From contig CANQKC010000001.1 of assembly GCA_947624305.1 (NCBI GenBank), forward strand, positions 124,001 to 188,000: DNA of 64,000 nt, read 5' to 3'. Positions 5,202-11,400 of the stretch are shown here, one piece after another. The notes under the pieces are model-generated. The model was not told the origin of the DNA. It saw only the letters and a program-made list of their open reading frames with translations, and ran no database searches. Source of the stretch: an uncultured Monoglobus sp. GTDB lineage: Bacteria; Bacillota; Clostridia; Monoglobales; Monoglobaceae. Position numbers and translations under genes: made by a program. How positions within the stretch are numbered: the stretch's first letter is position 1; each line of letters opens with the position of its first letter.

Positions 5202-6401
5202 TCAGCGTTCATAAACTATTTTTCCGTTCACCATTGTGTATTTGACGTCACTGCATTTTGCGGAATAAACAATGCTCGATACCGGGTTGTTGACCGGTCT
5301 CAGGTGCGGCGCGTCAAAATCGACCACGATCATGTCGGCGAGAAATCCCTCTTTTATCATTCCAAGGTTGTCAAAGCCGAGCGCCCTCGCTCCGTTGACA
5401 GTCGCCATTTTAAGCGCTGTCTCCGCGGGAACAGCCGTCGGATCAAGCCCCGCTCCCTTGTGGATAAGCGCGGCGGTCTTGATCTCTTCAAACATGTCGA
5501 GGCTGTTGTTGCTCGACGCGCCGTCCGTGCCGATCGCGACGTTTATCCCAATCTCAAGCATTTTCGGAACCGGCGCGATCCCCGAAGCAAGCTTTAAATT
5601 GCTTATGGAATTGTGAGCTACCGAAACGCCGTGCTTTTTTAAAATTTCAAGGTCCTTGTCCGTCATAACAACGCAATGGGCCGCGATCGTCGGGTTCTCA
5701 AACAGTCCCGTACTCTCCATATAGGCGGTCGGCGTCATATTGTGCTCGATCTCACAGTCCGAGAACTCGGTCCGCGTCTCGGCAAGGTGGGTGTGGATAG
5801 GCATGTTGTGCTCTTTCGCATAAGCGGCGCACTTTTCCAAAAGCTCAAACGAGCATGTGTATATCGCGTGGGGCGAAAAAGTGAAGCTTATAAGATCATT
5901 GTCCTTGAACTCCTCCGCCATTTCCTCCATCAGTCTGACCTTGCGGTCATAGCCGTCAAAATTCACACAGTCGCTGAGGACAGCGCGTATTCCTTTTTCC
6001 GCAGCGGCTCTGCCTGTCTCGACTTGATAGAAATACATGTCGCTGAAGCATGTGGTTCCGCCCGCGAGCATTTCGTCTATCGCGATCTCACTGCCGCGGC
6101 GCACATCTTCGGGCGTCATCTTATCCTCAAACGGAAAAATTTTGTTATACAGCCAGTCCTGCAAATTCATGTCGTCCGCGTAACCCCGAAGCAGCGTCAT
6201 GGCCGTGTGCGTGTGGGCGTTTATAAGCCCCGGCAGAAGCGCCTTGTTTTCACCGTCTATCACGCGGTCAAAGCTGCCCTCGGGGCGCGTTTTGCCGACA
6301 TATCCGATAAGCTTTCCGTCGGTCAGAACAAAGCCGTTTTTGATGACGCCGGCATCGTCGTCCATGGTTATGATCGTTATGTTTTCAAATAAAGTTTTCA
6401 T
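5202..6401 (-). CDS. mtaD: 5-methylthioadenosine/S-adenosylhomocysteine deaminase (amidohydrolase)
   Basis: A 399-residue amidohydrolase. Metal ligands are visible in order: HTHTAMTLLRGYADD (HxH), HLAET (His), AHCV (His) and GTDGASSNNSLDMFEE (Asp). This arrangement and the last motif are typical of the MtaD/SsnA-like branch that deaminates MTA, SAH or adenosine to the inosine form. It is the last gene of a minus-strand run with luxS and a purine-nucleoside phosphorylase upstream, which fits a role in SAH and purine nucleoside turnover. The ribosome-binding site GGGAG precedes the ATG. Substrate preference among MTA, SAH and related nucleosides cannot be read from sequence. Confidence 0.85.
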   Translation of the reverse strand: MKTLFENITIITMDDDAGVIKNGFVLTDGKLIGYVGKTRPEGSFDRVIDGENKALLPGLINAHTHTAMTLLRGYADDMNLQDWLYNKIFPFEDKMTPEDVRRGSEIAIDEMLAGGTTCFSDMYFYQVETGRAAAEKGIRAVLSDCVNFDGYDRKVRLMEEMAEEFKDNDLISFTFSPHAIYTCSFELLEKCAAYAKEHNMPIHTHLAETRTEFSDCEIEHNMTPTAYMESTGLFENPTIAAHCVVMTDKDLEILKKHGVSVAHNSISNLKLASGIAPVPKMLEIGINVAIGTDGASSNNSLDMFEEIKTAALIHKGAGLDPTAVPAETALKMATVNGARALGFDNLGMIKEGFLADMIVVDFDAPHLRPVNNPVSSIVYSAKCSDVKYTMVNGKIVYER

Positions 6402-6429
6402 AAATTATTCTCCCATAATATTGTCGGCG

Positions 6430-6888
6430 CTATTTTTCGTATTCCAGATCGTTCTCGGTGAGTTCTTTTATCTTTTCGTAATAATCCCTCGCCTCCCAGT
6501 TGGCAAGCTCCACGCTTAGATTGCGGAAGTTGCCGCACTCGACCTCACTCGCGCCGGGCATTTCGCCGTCATAGACCGAAATATCCTTGAATATTTTTTT
6601 GATAAGCTCAACGACCTTTTTGTTGTCCGCGTTCCGCATAAGCAGATAAAATCCTGTCTGGCAGCCCATCGGGCCGAAGTAAATAACGTCGTCCTTAAGT
6701 TCCGAGTTCCGCGCCATGGTGGCGAATAAGTGCTCCAGAGAATGCATGGTCGCGTTATCGAGCAGGCGGCCCGTGTTCGGTTTCCGCATGCGTATGTCAT
6801 AGGTCGTTATGTCGCCGTCAATTCGGGATATATAGACCCAAGGCCTTATTTTTCGGTGGTCAACAGTAAAACTCGCGATTTTTTCCAT
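6430..6888 (-). CDS. luxS: S-ribosylhomocysteine lyase (autoinducer-2 synthase)
   Basis: A 152-residue protein of normal LuxS length. The Zn-binding HxxEH motif is at H49-S-L-E52-H53 and the third ligand is C118 in ECGNFRNL; the MGCQTGFYLL segment is also conserved. It splits S-ribosylhomocysteine into homocysteine and DPD, the precursor of AI-2. The start codon directly follows the stop of the RAYT gene, and the ribosome-binding site GGAGGGAG lies inside the last codons of the RAYT gene. The nucleosidase that supplies S-ribosylhomocysteine (Pfs) is not in the window. Confidence 0.96.
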   Translation of the reverse strand: MEKIASFTVDHRKIRPWVYISRIDGDITTYDIRMRKPNTGRLLDNATMHSLEHLFATMARNSELKDDVIYFGPMGCQTGFYLLMRNADNKKVVELIKKIFKDISVYDGEMPGASEVECGNFRNLSVELANWEARDYYEKIKELTENDLEYEK

Positions 6889-7404
6889 TTAATCTCCCTC
6901 CTCTTTGATATAATAGCAATCCTGTTCCCATTTAAACAAATTGGTATCTATATAATTCCATATCCTCTCATAATCTTTCTCATTGCGTATCACATGATCG
7001 TGATATGAGCGCTGCCACAATGATCTGCCCGTCTTTTTATTCGTAAACCTTTTAAGCATTGACACAAAGGACGGCACTATCTCATTCGTAGGGGACGGCG
7101 CCCTCGACGTCCCGCTCTTGTCATCGTTTTCAACAATCAAAATCATATGAACATGGTTAGGCATTATTATATATTTGTCTACTTTTATATTTTCATAAAT
7201 CACTGCGGATTTTTTTATTTCATCGTCAACAATTATTCCGAGTGCAGACGGCTTCATTTCAGGGACGTCGAGGGCGCCGTCCCCTACAACCACTTTGCCA
7301 AAAATACACTTTTTATCCTTTGTGCATATAGTTATAAAATACGCACCGTTTTGAGAATAACTATAATATTCAAGCCTGTTTCGTTTTCTTGATTTGAATT
7401 CCAT
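6889..7404 (-). CDS. REP-associated tyrosine transposase (RAYT), IS200-like Y1 family
   Basis: A 171-residue single-domain Y1/HUH nuclease. The histidine motif is MPNHVHMIL and the candidate catalytic tyrosine lies in YERIWNYID near the C-terminus. Phrases such as NGAYFITICT, SLWQRSYHDHVI and a basic N-terminus are typical of RAYTs, which act on short palindromic REP sequences and are usually kept as single-copy domesticated genes. It abuts purine-nucleoside phosphorylase upstream (TAAATG) and luxS downstream (TAAATGG) with no intergenic bases, so it is part of the operon. Two perfect 26-base inverted repeats lie inside its coding sequence (7088-7113 and 7262-7287). No separate ribosome-binding site is evident, so translation may be coupled to the upstream gene. 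Confidence 0.88.
   Translation of the reverse strand: MEFKSRKRNRLEYYSYSQNGAYFITICTKDKKCIFGKVVVGDGALDVPEMKPSALGIIVDDEIKKSAVIYENIKVDKYIIMPNHVHMILIVENDDKSGTSRAPSPTNEIVPSFVSMLKRFTNKKTGRSLWQRSYHDHVIRNEKDYERIWNYIDTNLFKWEQDCYYIKEEGD
7088..7287. repeat. REPIN-like inverted pair inside the RAYT gene
   Basis: Bases 7088-7113 and 7262-7287 are perfect reverse complements over 26 bases, separated by 148 bases. Each arm is itself partly palindromic (GGGACG...CGTCCC with a 10-base loop). On the coding strand they encode VVGDGALDVP and GTSRAPSP. This is the layout of two REP sequences in opposite orientation. Confidence 0.8.
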
Positions 7405-8211
7405 TTACAACTTATTTAACAAACATTTTAACAATCCGATCAGTTTTTCACGGATAACGGGCTCGGCGTTGTCTATCGCCTCGCGGTTAAAGCCTCCGCC
7501 CTCAACTCCCGCGGCCATGTTTGAAACTCCGGACAAGGCGAGAATCCGCACTCCGCAGTGAGCTGCCGCGATAACCTCGGGCACGGTCGACATGCCCACC
7601 AGATCCGCTCCCAATATTTTAAGCGCGCGTATCTCGGCGGGCGTCTCAAACTGCGGCCCGGCCATGTAAGCGTACACGCCCTTCGGCAGGCTCATGCCGA
7701 GCCCGTCCGCGCACTTTTCGCAGAGCCTGATCAATCCTTTGTCATACGCGTTTGTCATGTCAAAGAACCGCTCGCCGAGCTCGTCGGGATTTCTGCCGCG
7801 AAGCGGAGACTCGGCGCAAAGCTTGATGTGGTCTCGTATTATCACAATATCGCCCGGGGCGTATTCATCGTTGAGCGCGCCCGAGGCGTTGGTGAGGATT
7901 ATCGTGTCGATCCCCATAGCCTTGAGCATATGTATCATAAACGCGGTCTCGGCCATGGTGTAGCCCTCGTAATAATGGAGCCTGCCCTGCATGAACGCGA
8001 CCGTTGCGCCCTCAAGTCGACCCACGACCATGCGGCATTTGTGGTAATTCCCGTCGATCGGCGGAAAGCCCGGAATCTCGCCGTACGGTATCACGATTTT
8101 ATTATCGAGAGCGTCCGCAAGGTCACCCATACCGGTGCCGAGCACCACGGCGACGTCGGGCGCGCGGTCAATTTTTGAATTTACATATTCGGCAGCTTGT
8201 GTGTATGACAT
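7405..8211 (-). CDS. punA: Purine-nucleoside phosphorylase (trimeric, NP-II family)
   Basis: A 268-residue phosphorylase for inosine and guanosine type nucleosides. It shows VVLGTGMGDLADAL (phosphate loop), QGRLHYYEGY, LTNASGALN, YAYMAGPQFETPAEIR and VGMSTVPEVIAA, the core motifs of trimeric PNPs. The start at 8211 is fixed by AAGGAG seven to eight bases upstream and by homology of MSYTQAAEYV; an open frame continues upstream only because it runs through a repeat. It lies downstream of purL and leads into RAYT, luxS and mtaD, linking purine salvage with SAH degradation products. Confidence 0.93.
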   Translation of the reverse strand: MSYTQAAEYVNSKIDRAPDVAVVLGTGMGDLADALDNKIVIPYGEIPGFPPIDGNYHKCRMVVGRLEGATVAFMQGRLHYYEGYTMAETAFMIHMLKAMGIDTIILTNASGALNDEYAPGDIVIIRDHIKLCAESPLRGRNPDELGERFFDMTNAYDKGLIRLCEKCADGLGMSLPKGVYAYMAGPQFETPAEIRALKILGADLVGMSTVPEVIAAAHCGVRILALSGVSNMAAGVEGGGFNREAIDNAEPVIREKLIGLLKCLLNKL

Positions 8212-8247
8212 AATAATTCTCCTTTTTGTTTCCCAAATATGCTCGCC

Positions 8248-8366
8248 TCCCTCTCCGTCGCCTTCGGTGCCACCTCTCCCTCCTAAAGGAGGGAGAGGCT
8301 GATATTTGGCTCTCCTCCTTTTAAGGGGGAGAGCTGTCAGCGCAGCTGACTGAGAGGGAGTCACAT
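8248..8366. repeat. REP-like cluster of hairpins between purL and punA
   Basis: Three palindromes in tandem: a 12-bp stem with AA loop (8273-8298), an imperfect GCTCTCC...GGAGAGC hairpin (about 8309-8334), and GTCAGC/GCTGAC (8336-8350). The sequence resembles the second cluster at 50490-50600 (shared CCTCTCCGTC, ACCTCTCCC and GAGAGGCT), so both belong to one dispersed family. Confidence 0.75.
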
Positions 8367-8404
8367 CTTATTTGCACGGCCAAATTGCGTTTTTGGAAGG
8401 CCGA

Positions 8405-11400
8405 TCATGAAAAATACTTAACTCCGCTTTCAAATATCTTCTGGTCTATGTTTCCTGTGATGTTTTTAAACACGTTTTTGCCTATGCGCTCCGAATGGCC
8501 CATTTTTCCGAAAACTCTGCCGTCGGGGCTGGTAATTCCCTCGATAGCGTAATACGAGCCGTTGGGATTATAAGGCATCTCATAAGTCGGCTCGCCCGAC
8601 AGATCAACATACTGAGTGGCGATCTGTCCGTTCTTCTCCATTTCGGCGATTACCTCGGGGCTCGCCACAAAGCGGCCCTCGCCGTGGGACACGGCCACCT
8701 GATGTATATCTCCGAGCTCCACTCCCGCGAGCCACGGCGATTTTACCGATGAGATACGCGTCGAAACGATCTGCGAAACGTGCCTGCCGACCGTGTTATA
8801 GGTAAGCGTCGGGCAGGCGTCGTCAACCTTTCTTATCTCACCGTAAGGCACGAGGCCGAGCTTGACCAAAGCCTGAAATCCGTTGCATATGCCCAGGATA
8901 AGTCCGTCGCGCTTGTTTAAAAGCTCCATGACAGCCTCGCGCAGCTTCTCGTTCTCAAATGCGGCCTTGATGAACTTTCCGGAGCCGTCGGGCTCGTCGC
9001 CGCCGCTGAAACCGCCGGGGATCATGATTATCTGCGCCTCGTTGACCGACTTCACAAATCTGTCGATCGACTCCTCAACATGCGACTGCTTCAGATTTCT
9101 GAATATCCGCACGTCGGTCTCGGCACCGGCCTGCTCGAAAACTCTTGCGGAGTCATACTCGCAGTTGGTTCCGGGGAACGCGGGGATAAACACCTTCGGC
9201 TTCGCCGTCTTTATCGCGGGCGCCTTTGTGTTTCTTTTGTCCCACGAGAACGCCTTCATGCCCACGTCGTCATATTTCGCCTTGGTGGGATAAACGCCTT
9301 CAAGCGGCTTTTTCCACGCCGTTATTATCTCGTCTATATTGATCTCCTCGCCGCCTATTCTGATAACGCCGTCGTCGGTGGTCCTGCCGAGCTTTATCGT
9401 GTCAACACTGTCGCCCAGATAGCCGGTCGCGTTGTTGCCCTCGACCTCAAGGATAATGCCTCCGCTCATCGCGCGGAACAGATCCTCTCCGCTTCCGCAG
9501 TGAGTGAACGCGAAGCCGAGCTTATTGCCCATAGCCGCCTTGATCACGGCCTCCATTGCTCCGCCGTAGCCCACGGCATACGCGCTTCTGATAACGCTGC
9601 TTGGATCCGAGATCATTATGTTAAGCATTCCGTAAAGCTGCTTTAAGCTGTCAAAATCGGGCAGGTTGTTTTCATCATATTTCGGGCGCACGAGGAAGAC
9701 CATGTTGCCCGCGCCTTTGAATTCGCAGGACACCGCCTTGTTTGAGTCAAGAGGCGCGACCGCGAACGAGACGAGCGTGGGCGGCACGTCAATATCGTTG
9801 AACGAGCCCGACATCGAGTCCTTGCCTCCGATAGCCGCGAGGCCCAGCTTCTCCTGCGCGTAATAACCGCCGAGCAGCGCCGCGAGCGGCTTGCCCCAGC
9901 GCTCCGGGTCGGTTCCGAGGCGCTCAAAATATTCCTGGAACGTAAGATAAATGTCCTTATAATCGGCTCCCGCGCACACGGCCCTTGTCACCGACTCGAC
10001 AACGGCGTAAACCGCGCCCGCGAACGGGTTGGCCTCCGAAACCTTCGGATCATAGCCGTAGGCCATTACCGTGGCGGTCTCGCTCTCTCTTCCTCCGCCG
10101 AGGACAGGGATTTTCGCGACCATGCTCTGTTGGGGCGTGAGCTGATATTTTCCGCCGTAAGGCATAAACACCGAACCACCGCCGATAGTGCTGTCAAAAC
10201 GCTCTACCAGGCCTTTCTGCGAGCAGACGTTAAGATCGCTCATAAGCGACATGATCTTCTCTTTATATGTATCTCCTTTTGCGTTAAACTCATATTTATC
10301 AAGTCCGAAATCGTCGGCAGTAACAGTGACGTCGGCGTTTTTCTCGGCTCCGTTGGTGTTTAAAAACGCCCTTGAAATGTCGCATATCGTCTTGCCGCGC
10401 CAGCTCATAACAAGGCGCGGACTCTCGGTCACAACAGCCACAACGACCGCGTCAAGGTTTTCCTTATCGGCCTCGGCAATGAATTTTTCCGCGTCCTTTT
10501 CGCGCACAACGACCGCCATGCGCTCCTGTGACTCCGAGATCGCGAGCTCGGTTCCGTCAAGGCCCTCATACTTTTTGGGGACCTTGTCAAGGTCGATCTC
10601 AAGTCCGTCGGCAAGCTCGCCGATCGCGACCGACACGCCGCCCGCTCCGAAATCGTTGCAGCGGCGGATCATGGTCGTCACCTCGCTCTTGCGGAACAGC
10701 CTCTGAAGCTTTCTCTCAACCGGCGGATTACCCTTCTGGACCTCGGCGCCGCAGGTTTCAAGAGACGAGCTGTCGTGAGCTTTGGACGAGCCCGTCGCTC
10801 CTCCGCAGCCGTCGCGGCCCGTCATTCCGCCAAGCAGAATAACCACGTCGCCGGGCTCCGGAACCTCGCGTATAACGTTCTTTTTAGGGGCAGCCGCGAT
10901 AACTGCACCGATCTCCATGCGCTTTGCGACATAGCCCTCGTCATATATCTCGTTGACCACGCCGGTGGCGAGGCCTATCTGGTTTCCGTATGAGCTGTAA
11001 CCCTCGGCCGCGCCGAGGACCAGCTTGCGCTGCGACAGCTTACCGGGCAGCGTCTCCCTGAGCGTCTTTCTCGGGTCGCCCGCTCCGGTTACGCGCATCG
11101 CCTGATAAACATACGAGCGTCCGGACAGCGGATCGCGGATAGCGCCGCCGAGACAGGTGGCCGCTCCGCCGAACGGCTCGATCTCGGTTGGGTGGTTATG
11201 GGTCTCGTTTTTAAACATTACCAAATAATCCTCGGTCGTGCCGTCGGTCATTTTTACCTCGACCTCGATCGAGCAGGCGTTGATCTCCTCACTCTCGTCA
11301 AGAGCCGTGAGCACGCCGCGCTTTTTAAGCTCCTTGACCGCGATCGTGGCGACGTCCATAAGGCATACGCTCTTTTTGTCAAGCCTCTCGCCGTACACGA

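Follow-up and report, generated by a model that had tools for sequence, protein, structure and literature searches.

A RAYT gene of an uncultured Monoglobus with an inverted pair of its genome's own REP inside the reading frame

The REP-associated tyrosine transposases (RAYTs or TnpAREP) bind and process their cognate REPs in vitro. In the usual form of this association the REPs flank the transposase gene. However, according to the text of Quentin et al. 2018 (PMC6006769), in-frame REP insertions are a characteristic of subclass 2.4 of TnpAREP (Bertels group 4), where they generally occupy a variable loop between HuH and Y, besides the flanking REPs; the motifs given there for the subclass are NH[IFV]H, WQ and YIxNNP. 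Palindromes that are read through in frame are also described in the text of PMC3733652, for the Rickettsia palindromic elements and for other intragenic REPs, the latter being known from many genes. The preliminary description of the locus presented here had assumed that REPs and their RAYT normally lie in separate places, which needs to be corrected in view of subclass 2.4.

The window, i.e. the complete stretch of 64,000 nucleotides that was analysed, contains a reading frame of 171 aa (6889..7404, minus strand) that was annotated on basis of the open reading frame, NCBIfam and the predicted fold and that carries two REP arms in frame. In agreement with the earlier proposal, it encodes a REP-associated tyrosine transposase (RAYT/TnpAREP). 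The NCBIfam model of that name (NF047646) matched the window protein with E=5.6e-18 and 65.2 bits, which is below the curated cut-off of 80, and it matched 68/68 members (E<=0.001) of the family alignment A2, which was made from 68 of 99 stop-free genes and the window gene. A Pfam search of the window protein at 0.001 gave no match; in a search at E<=1 the Y1_Tnp family appeared with a value of 0.0096, under its family cut-off. The closest PDB entry to the predicted fold (mean pLDDT 79.8) was 4er8, a RAYT with a REP hairpin (Foldseek E=1.1e-7, TM 0.59), and the sequence-profile match to the same entry had an E-value of 3.8e-12. The combination of an HUH motif and a single tyrosine (Y1) by which RAYTs are recognized was found in the form of the metal-binding motif MPNHVH (residues 81-86; 7147..7164, minus strand), which is located between both arms, and of Y151 in the sequence YIDTN (6952..6954, minus strand). 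The motif, with M81, P82, H84 and H86, and the tyrosine are invariant in the alignment of 68 sequences, and a catalytic role of Y151 is presumed from the membership of the TnpAREP family.

The gene is tightly packed between its neighbours. Upstream, a gene for a purine-nucleoside phosphorylase (7405..8211, minus strand; NF006054, E=3.5e-95) is followed by the RAYT start codon with zero gap, and luxS, the gene for the S-ribosylhomocysteine lyase LuxS (6430..6888, minus strand; NF002604, E=1.4e-53), begins directly past the RAYT stop. An inverted repeat of another type is found near the start of the phosphorylase gene (8247-8360), with arms of 51 nt that are 76% complementary.

The inverted arms that had been reported within the gene were located at 7088-7113 and 7262-7287, both within the reading frame; they are 26 nt each, 100% complementary and separated by 148 nt, and their translations VVGDGALDVP and GTSRAPSPT (given before as GTSRAPSP) agree with that frame. 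Arm 1 (7262..7287, minus strand), for which a hairpin fold was predicted, codes for VGDGALDVP, and its 5' GTAG foot belongs to the coding strand. In arm 2 (7088..7113, plus strand; DNA hairpin of -9.6 kcal/mol) this foot belongs to the template strand, and the encoded peptide is GTSRAPSP. Each arm consists of a GTAG and a subsequent hairpin whose stem contains a G/A mismatch, and the GTAG feet of the pair point outward (head to head). As a result of the inversion, one complete 5'-GTAG hairpin, and no more than one, is present on either DNA strand of the gene. In the structure model the product of arm 1 (residues 40-48) is a turn that joins strands 36-39 and 49-52 upstream of the HUH motif, and the product of arm 2 is a low-confidence loop (pLDDT<50 for residues 96-106) that connects the HUH strand to the following helix. 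At <=3 mismatches the two arms in the RAYT are the only arm matches in the 64-kb window (100 shuffles yielded 0), so that flanking REPs, which are usual but not universal for a REPtron, were not found there in the form of further arm copies.

A search of the complete own genome revealed 64 arm matches at <=3 mismatches, of which 47 are exact (the two of the RAYT included), and none for the reversed pattern. The arm is a REP of the window genome, i.e. a dispersed GTAG-footed palindromic repeat. The preliminary description had considered that its case would fall if the arm were unique in the genome, which it is not; moreover, the REPIN-like arrangement it had noticed can be specified as an inverted pair, GTAG outward, of the genome's own REP within the gene. 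The surroundings were viewed for 30 exact copies among the matches listed (47 exact in all). Most of these copies miss an inverted exact partner nearby, and 27/30 lie outside any ORF of at least 150 aa; the remainder consists of the pair in the RAYT and of one copy at the start-codon end of an ORF of 514 aa. When the own genome was searched with the protein, three places were obtained, none with the segment between the arms alone. The possibility that the arm pair transposes as a unit of 200 bp is thus unsupported, as separate copies of such a unit were not found in the own genome. Several further GTAG-type palindromic families are clustered between genes of this genome (L003-L030), for example GTAGGGGCGGATATTATCCGCCCG.

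The fixed arrangement of the pair became clear from a comparison with related genes. Protein matches were present in 34/148 related genomes, and a scan of named genomes provided 80 loci, the best 80 of 533 candidates. From among the matches listed, and including extra gene copies within those loci, we drew 102 non-redundant full-length RAYTs, leaving out the genes that do not span profile positions 10 to 150, one gene with a failed HUH pattern and five near-duplicates. A GTAG hairpin is present in both of the corresponding loops, head to head, in 88/102 of these, counted without the requirement that the arms match, and in 1/102 both loops have the hairpin in the opposite orientation. A hairpin in loop 1 alone was seen in 4/102, in loop 2 alone in 4/102 and in neither in 6/102. 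The other objection foreseen in the preliminary description concerned RAYTs in which the two segments are conserved in the absence of an inverted repeat; RAYTs without the pair do occur, but as a minority of 14/102, in which one loop or both are devoid of a hairpin. When loop 1 was compared to the reverse complement of loop 2, a score of at least 12 was reached in 85/102 RAYTs, as against 12.2% of mismatched gene pairs and 12/102 in the same-strand (direct) comparison. The spacer between the arms varies from 120 to 188 nt. For 66/78 genes a copy of the own arm is absent within 1 kb; within 10 kb such a copy was seen at 18/61 loci, where most of the genomes were scanned in part. As far as these sequences go, the internal inverted REP pair is widespread in clostridial RAYTs, as had been surmised before.

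RAYTs without arms are represented by L032 and L155. The latter is a plasmid-borne RAYT of Leptolinea, 38% identical, that has no internal arms and is accompanied by seven REP-like hairpins within ~0.5 kb on either side. In the RAYT on a faecal scaffold labelled as phage (L157) the internal pair is perfect, and a RAYT on a Monoglobus plasmid (L158) has one REP upstream and one within the annotated gene. The pair-less RAYTs are scattered over a gene tree with few columns and weak support (14 changes against a shuffled mean of 16, with 39/500 shuffles as low).

The way in which the arms vary was studied in a set of 84 genes that were chosen for matching arms, so that small differences within a gene are favoured by construction (L088 was excluded, having no GTA at the matched arm). 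The arms of these genes comprise 108 distinct 24-mers. The two arms of one gene differ by 1.31 out of 24 nt on average, being identical over 24 nt in 30/84 genes and different in 54/84, whereas the equivalent arms of different genes are 9.7-11 out of 24 nt apart at a protein identity of 30-60%, with convergence only beyond ~70%. The small difference within genes, although favoured by the choice of the set, still stands for 84/102 genes. Among the differences between the arms of one gene, 17 stem pairs, distributed over 15 genes, have changed at both positions with retention of the pairing (random placement: mean 2.2, maximum 8 in 500), 8 stem pairs are broken versus a random mean of 81.7, and 123 differences fall at unpaired positions of the hairpin versus a random mean of 38.8. 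In addition, all 168 arms (168/168) fold below -3 kcal/mol, compared to 106/168 after shuffling, with a median of -9.6 versus -3.7. Since the differences between the arms are compensated within the arm, it is as an individual REP hairpin that each arm is maintained. The frame of arm 1 in which TAG would be read as a stop is used by 0/84 genes.

Within genus g1, a comparison to the window gene revealed 0/52 changes in the arms versus 58/464 (G009) and 53/458 (G003) elsewhere in the gene. For three other genomes the conservation of the arms is not significant (2/52 versus 51/461 in G011, 3/51 versus 24/464 in G006 and 1/52 versus 42/464 in G010). The gene of G003 (L035) contains an extra in-frame GTAGGG in the foot of arm 1, at coding positions 117-122.

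The relation between the arms of a RAYT and the repeats of its genome was evaluated by counting copies at up to 3 mismatches. For genus g1, the window arm is present in 64, 45, 22 and 60 copies in the genomes with an intact RAYT, in 50 and 55 copies in those with an interrupted RAYT, and in 0, 18, 12, 0, 0 and 1 copies in those without a RAYT match or with a fragment only. G005, which also has a distant armless RAYT, was counted in the last group; G002 and G004 retain their 18 and 12 copies with a RAYT match being absent. Three arms from other clades have 0 copies in 12/12 genus-g1 genomes, and at home the repeats number 52 (G029), 64 and 33 (G032, for two different RAYTs), 14 (G033) and 13 (G076). 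Chakrabartyella piscis has 94 copies of its own arm, and the two REP subtypes of its genome are mirrored in the two arms; the same pattern also matches 48 places in G000 and 20 in Ruminococcus flavefaciens, because the arms are related. R. flavefaciens SAb67 holds 33 copies of its own arm and Fonticella tunisiensis 30, and five other genomes have 1-42 matches to the common type of the latter. G032 has RAYTs of two different arm types, for which the repeats are present in 64 and 33 copies (contigs C2, C18 and C25). The window arm, too, is found in this genome, in 132 copies, although it was not observed in any of the three RAYT matches there, the MAG being 79% complete. Some of the arms from other clades also appear in genomes where the RAYT was not seen with the exact arm (31 in G084, 17 in G092, 36 in G060 and 100 in G131), partly as sub-variants. 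The commonest genomic copy equals the RAYT arms in G000, G029 and G032. Each arm of G011 is one base off its 31-copy genomic consensus, which implies that the gene-borne arms are not strictly the current template, and the RAYT of G023 has perfect arms with just two other related copies found. According to these counts, genomes are usually rich in the arm of their own RAYT and hold few or none of another's, with exceptions.

Broken RAYTs were encountered in 12 stretches, with two interrupted full genes (G006 and G010); the breakpoints were read by eye. Four stretches end at contig ends and are uninformative (L146, L149, L150 and L151). Four of the six informative fragments break within ~10 nt of an arm (L144, L145, L152 and L147, the last representing the same event as L033), and two break away from the arms (L143 and L148). 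The breakage at the arms hints at cutting there, yet the pattern is suggestive only, given that a local alignment is prone to end in a variable loop. In the interrupted genes (L153 on G010:C5 and L154 on G006:C12) the RAYT is disrupted by an insertion of 93 nt in the middle of arm 2, part of which resembles the sequence next to another REP copy in L024. L033 (G000:C7:36941-37093) and L147 (G010) are N-terminal remnants of 51 codons that end just past arm 1, and L148 (G005) is a C-terminal part. All three lie directly upstream of a gene for a Der/EngA-like GTPase, and they look like one ancestral RAYT that was deleted differently per species.

We consider it rather probable that the locus constitutes a one-gene REPtron, in which the RAYT gene carries its own cognate REP twice in frame, head to head, in the surface loops that flank the HUH motif. 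This reading derives from comparison, namely from the constancy of the sites and of the orientation, from the identity of the arms as REPs, from their concerted change and from the match to dispersed repeats in most genomes tested. When the RAYT gene becomes single-stranded, for instance as lagging-strand template, its own product could bind and process the REP within it, and the inversion would offer one substrate to the product whichever strand of the gene is single. Exchange between the gene-borne and the dispersed REPs, together with selection for a recognizable hairpin, would keep the arms alike. With one substrate per strand inside the gene, the RAYT gene would thus form a self-contained REPtron for which flanking REPs are unneeded and whose substrate travels along when the gene moves.

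Several other explanations were weighed. REPs might sometimes insert into tolerant loops of RAYTs, in which case the gene-borne copies have no role. Such a passive landing agrees with the location of both arms in stretches that encode surface loops or disordered ones, with the existence of armless RAYTs (L032 and L155) and with the intragenic REPs reported in the texts cited above for many genes (PMC3733652) and for subclass 2.4 RAYTs (PMC6006769). However, random landing should yield single arms and both orientations, whereas the same two sites and relative orientation recur in 88/102 genes and are wrong in 1, and of the 28 other genomic copies examined 0 lie inside a clear ORF, save one at an ORF start; we therefore regard it as unlikely. 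An old insertion could also have been kept alike merely by recombination or gene conversion with the genomic copies, without selection. In G000, G029 and G032 the arms are identical to the copy that is most frequent in the genome, which fits this homogenisation, as does the insertion in arm 2 of G006 and G010, by which foreign sequence evidently can enter that spot. It is nevertheless quite unlikely, considering that the pair persists in G023 next to two other related copies found and that the arms of G011 differ from the genomic consensus, two observations that each speak for their own lineage.

The two remaining explanations concern the RNA or single-stranded DNA and the protein. The preliminary description had envisaged a hairpin across 200 bases, and arms that pair over ~150 nt in the mRNA or in single-stranded DNA could control the translation or expression of the RAYT. 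The long stem of arm 1 and arm 2 is indeed part of the predicted minimum-energy fold (RNA -89.3 kcal/mol, z -8.6; as DNA, z -7.2). A search for Rfam families in 6400-8600 found none. Moreover, the arms differ in 54/84 genes in such a way that their own hairpins are kept (17 pairs compensatory and 8 broken, with a large share of the differences, 123, at unpaired positions of the small hairpins) and the long stem becomes mismatched; each compensatory change in one arm costs a mismatch in the long stem. The substitutions thus protect the small hairpins instead of the long stem, which was rejected as the main conserved feature because the changes between the arms are compensated inside each arm, and a controlling role for it seems decidedly improbable. 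Finally, the loops might be conserved for the sake of the protein, with the inverted repeat as a by-product. The phrases GTSRAPSPT and VGDGxxDVP do recur among relatives, but the peptides depend strongly on the clade while the inverted match stays (12.2% for mismatched gene pairs), and translation reads the two arms in opposite senses, with arm 2 occurring even in two frames (68/84 and 16/84 genes). Peptide conservation was rejected on account of these opposite senses and the variation by clade, and the covariation between the arms and within the hairpins makes it very unlikely indeed.

A further and more tentative possibility is that the RAYT ORF acts as portable founder of a REP family, with the catalyst and the substrate for both strands in one gene. 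Hints in this direction, for what we regard as a doubtful but possible extension, come from G023 with its perfect arms and two other related copies, from the phage-labelled L157 and from the subtypes of C. piscis. If true, the transfer of one ORF would suffice to found a REP population, and the REP family of a genome becomes readable from its RAYT. The arrangement bears on the origin and spread of REP families and on how these remain matched to their RAYT. A hairpin in the own frame provides, from sequence alone, a candidate enzyme-substrate pair per lineage, and makes the recognition code testable over >100 arm sequences. Another question that arises is why the gene of a nuclease should retain, on either strand, the sequence that its product presumably cuts.

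Judged by the description in the text of PMC6006769, the window family is very near subclass 2.4. In both cases an arm (here arm 2, residues 98-106) lies in frame between the histidines of the HUH motif (H84/H86) and the tyrosine (Y151). NHVH and WQ are present in the window RAYT, and the Y motif reads YIDTNL, not YIxNNP. Unlike subclass 2.4 as described there, the window family adds an arm upstream of HuH to form a fixed inverted pair, is usually without a copy of its own REP within 1 kb, and has arms that change in concert. The fixed inverted pair and the concerted change were not found in the literature text searched; the pair may be shown in Additional figures S6/S10 of Quentin et al. 2018. 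The presence of REPs in frame within RAYT genes had thus been reported already and, measured against that text, the second upstream arm, the fixed inversion, the usual lack of copies nearby and the concerted compensatory change are additional. The Rickettsia palindromic elements and intragenic REPs, as covered by the text of PMC3733652, occur in many unrelated genes at varying sites, whereas the REPs of the window are found at two fixed sites in the presumed mobiliser itself. With the classical REPtron of E. coli and Stenotrophomonas the locus shares the HUH-Y1 enzyme, the GTAG-footed hairpins in many dispersed copies and the cognate matching, but its REPs are inside the gene and not beside it; the Leptolinea locus (L155) represents the classical form. 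The REPIN, a REP doublet that forms a hairpin, likewise consists of two inverted REPs with GTAG outward, as in the window and 88/102 relatives; here, however, the spacer is 148 nt of coding sequence for the catalytic domain, and dispersal of the unit as such was not found in its own genome.
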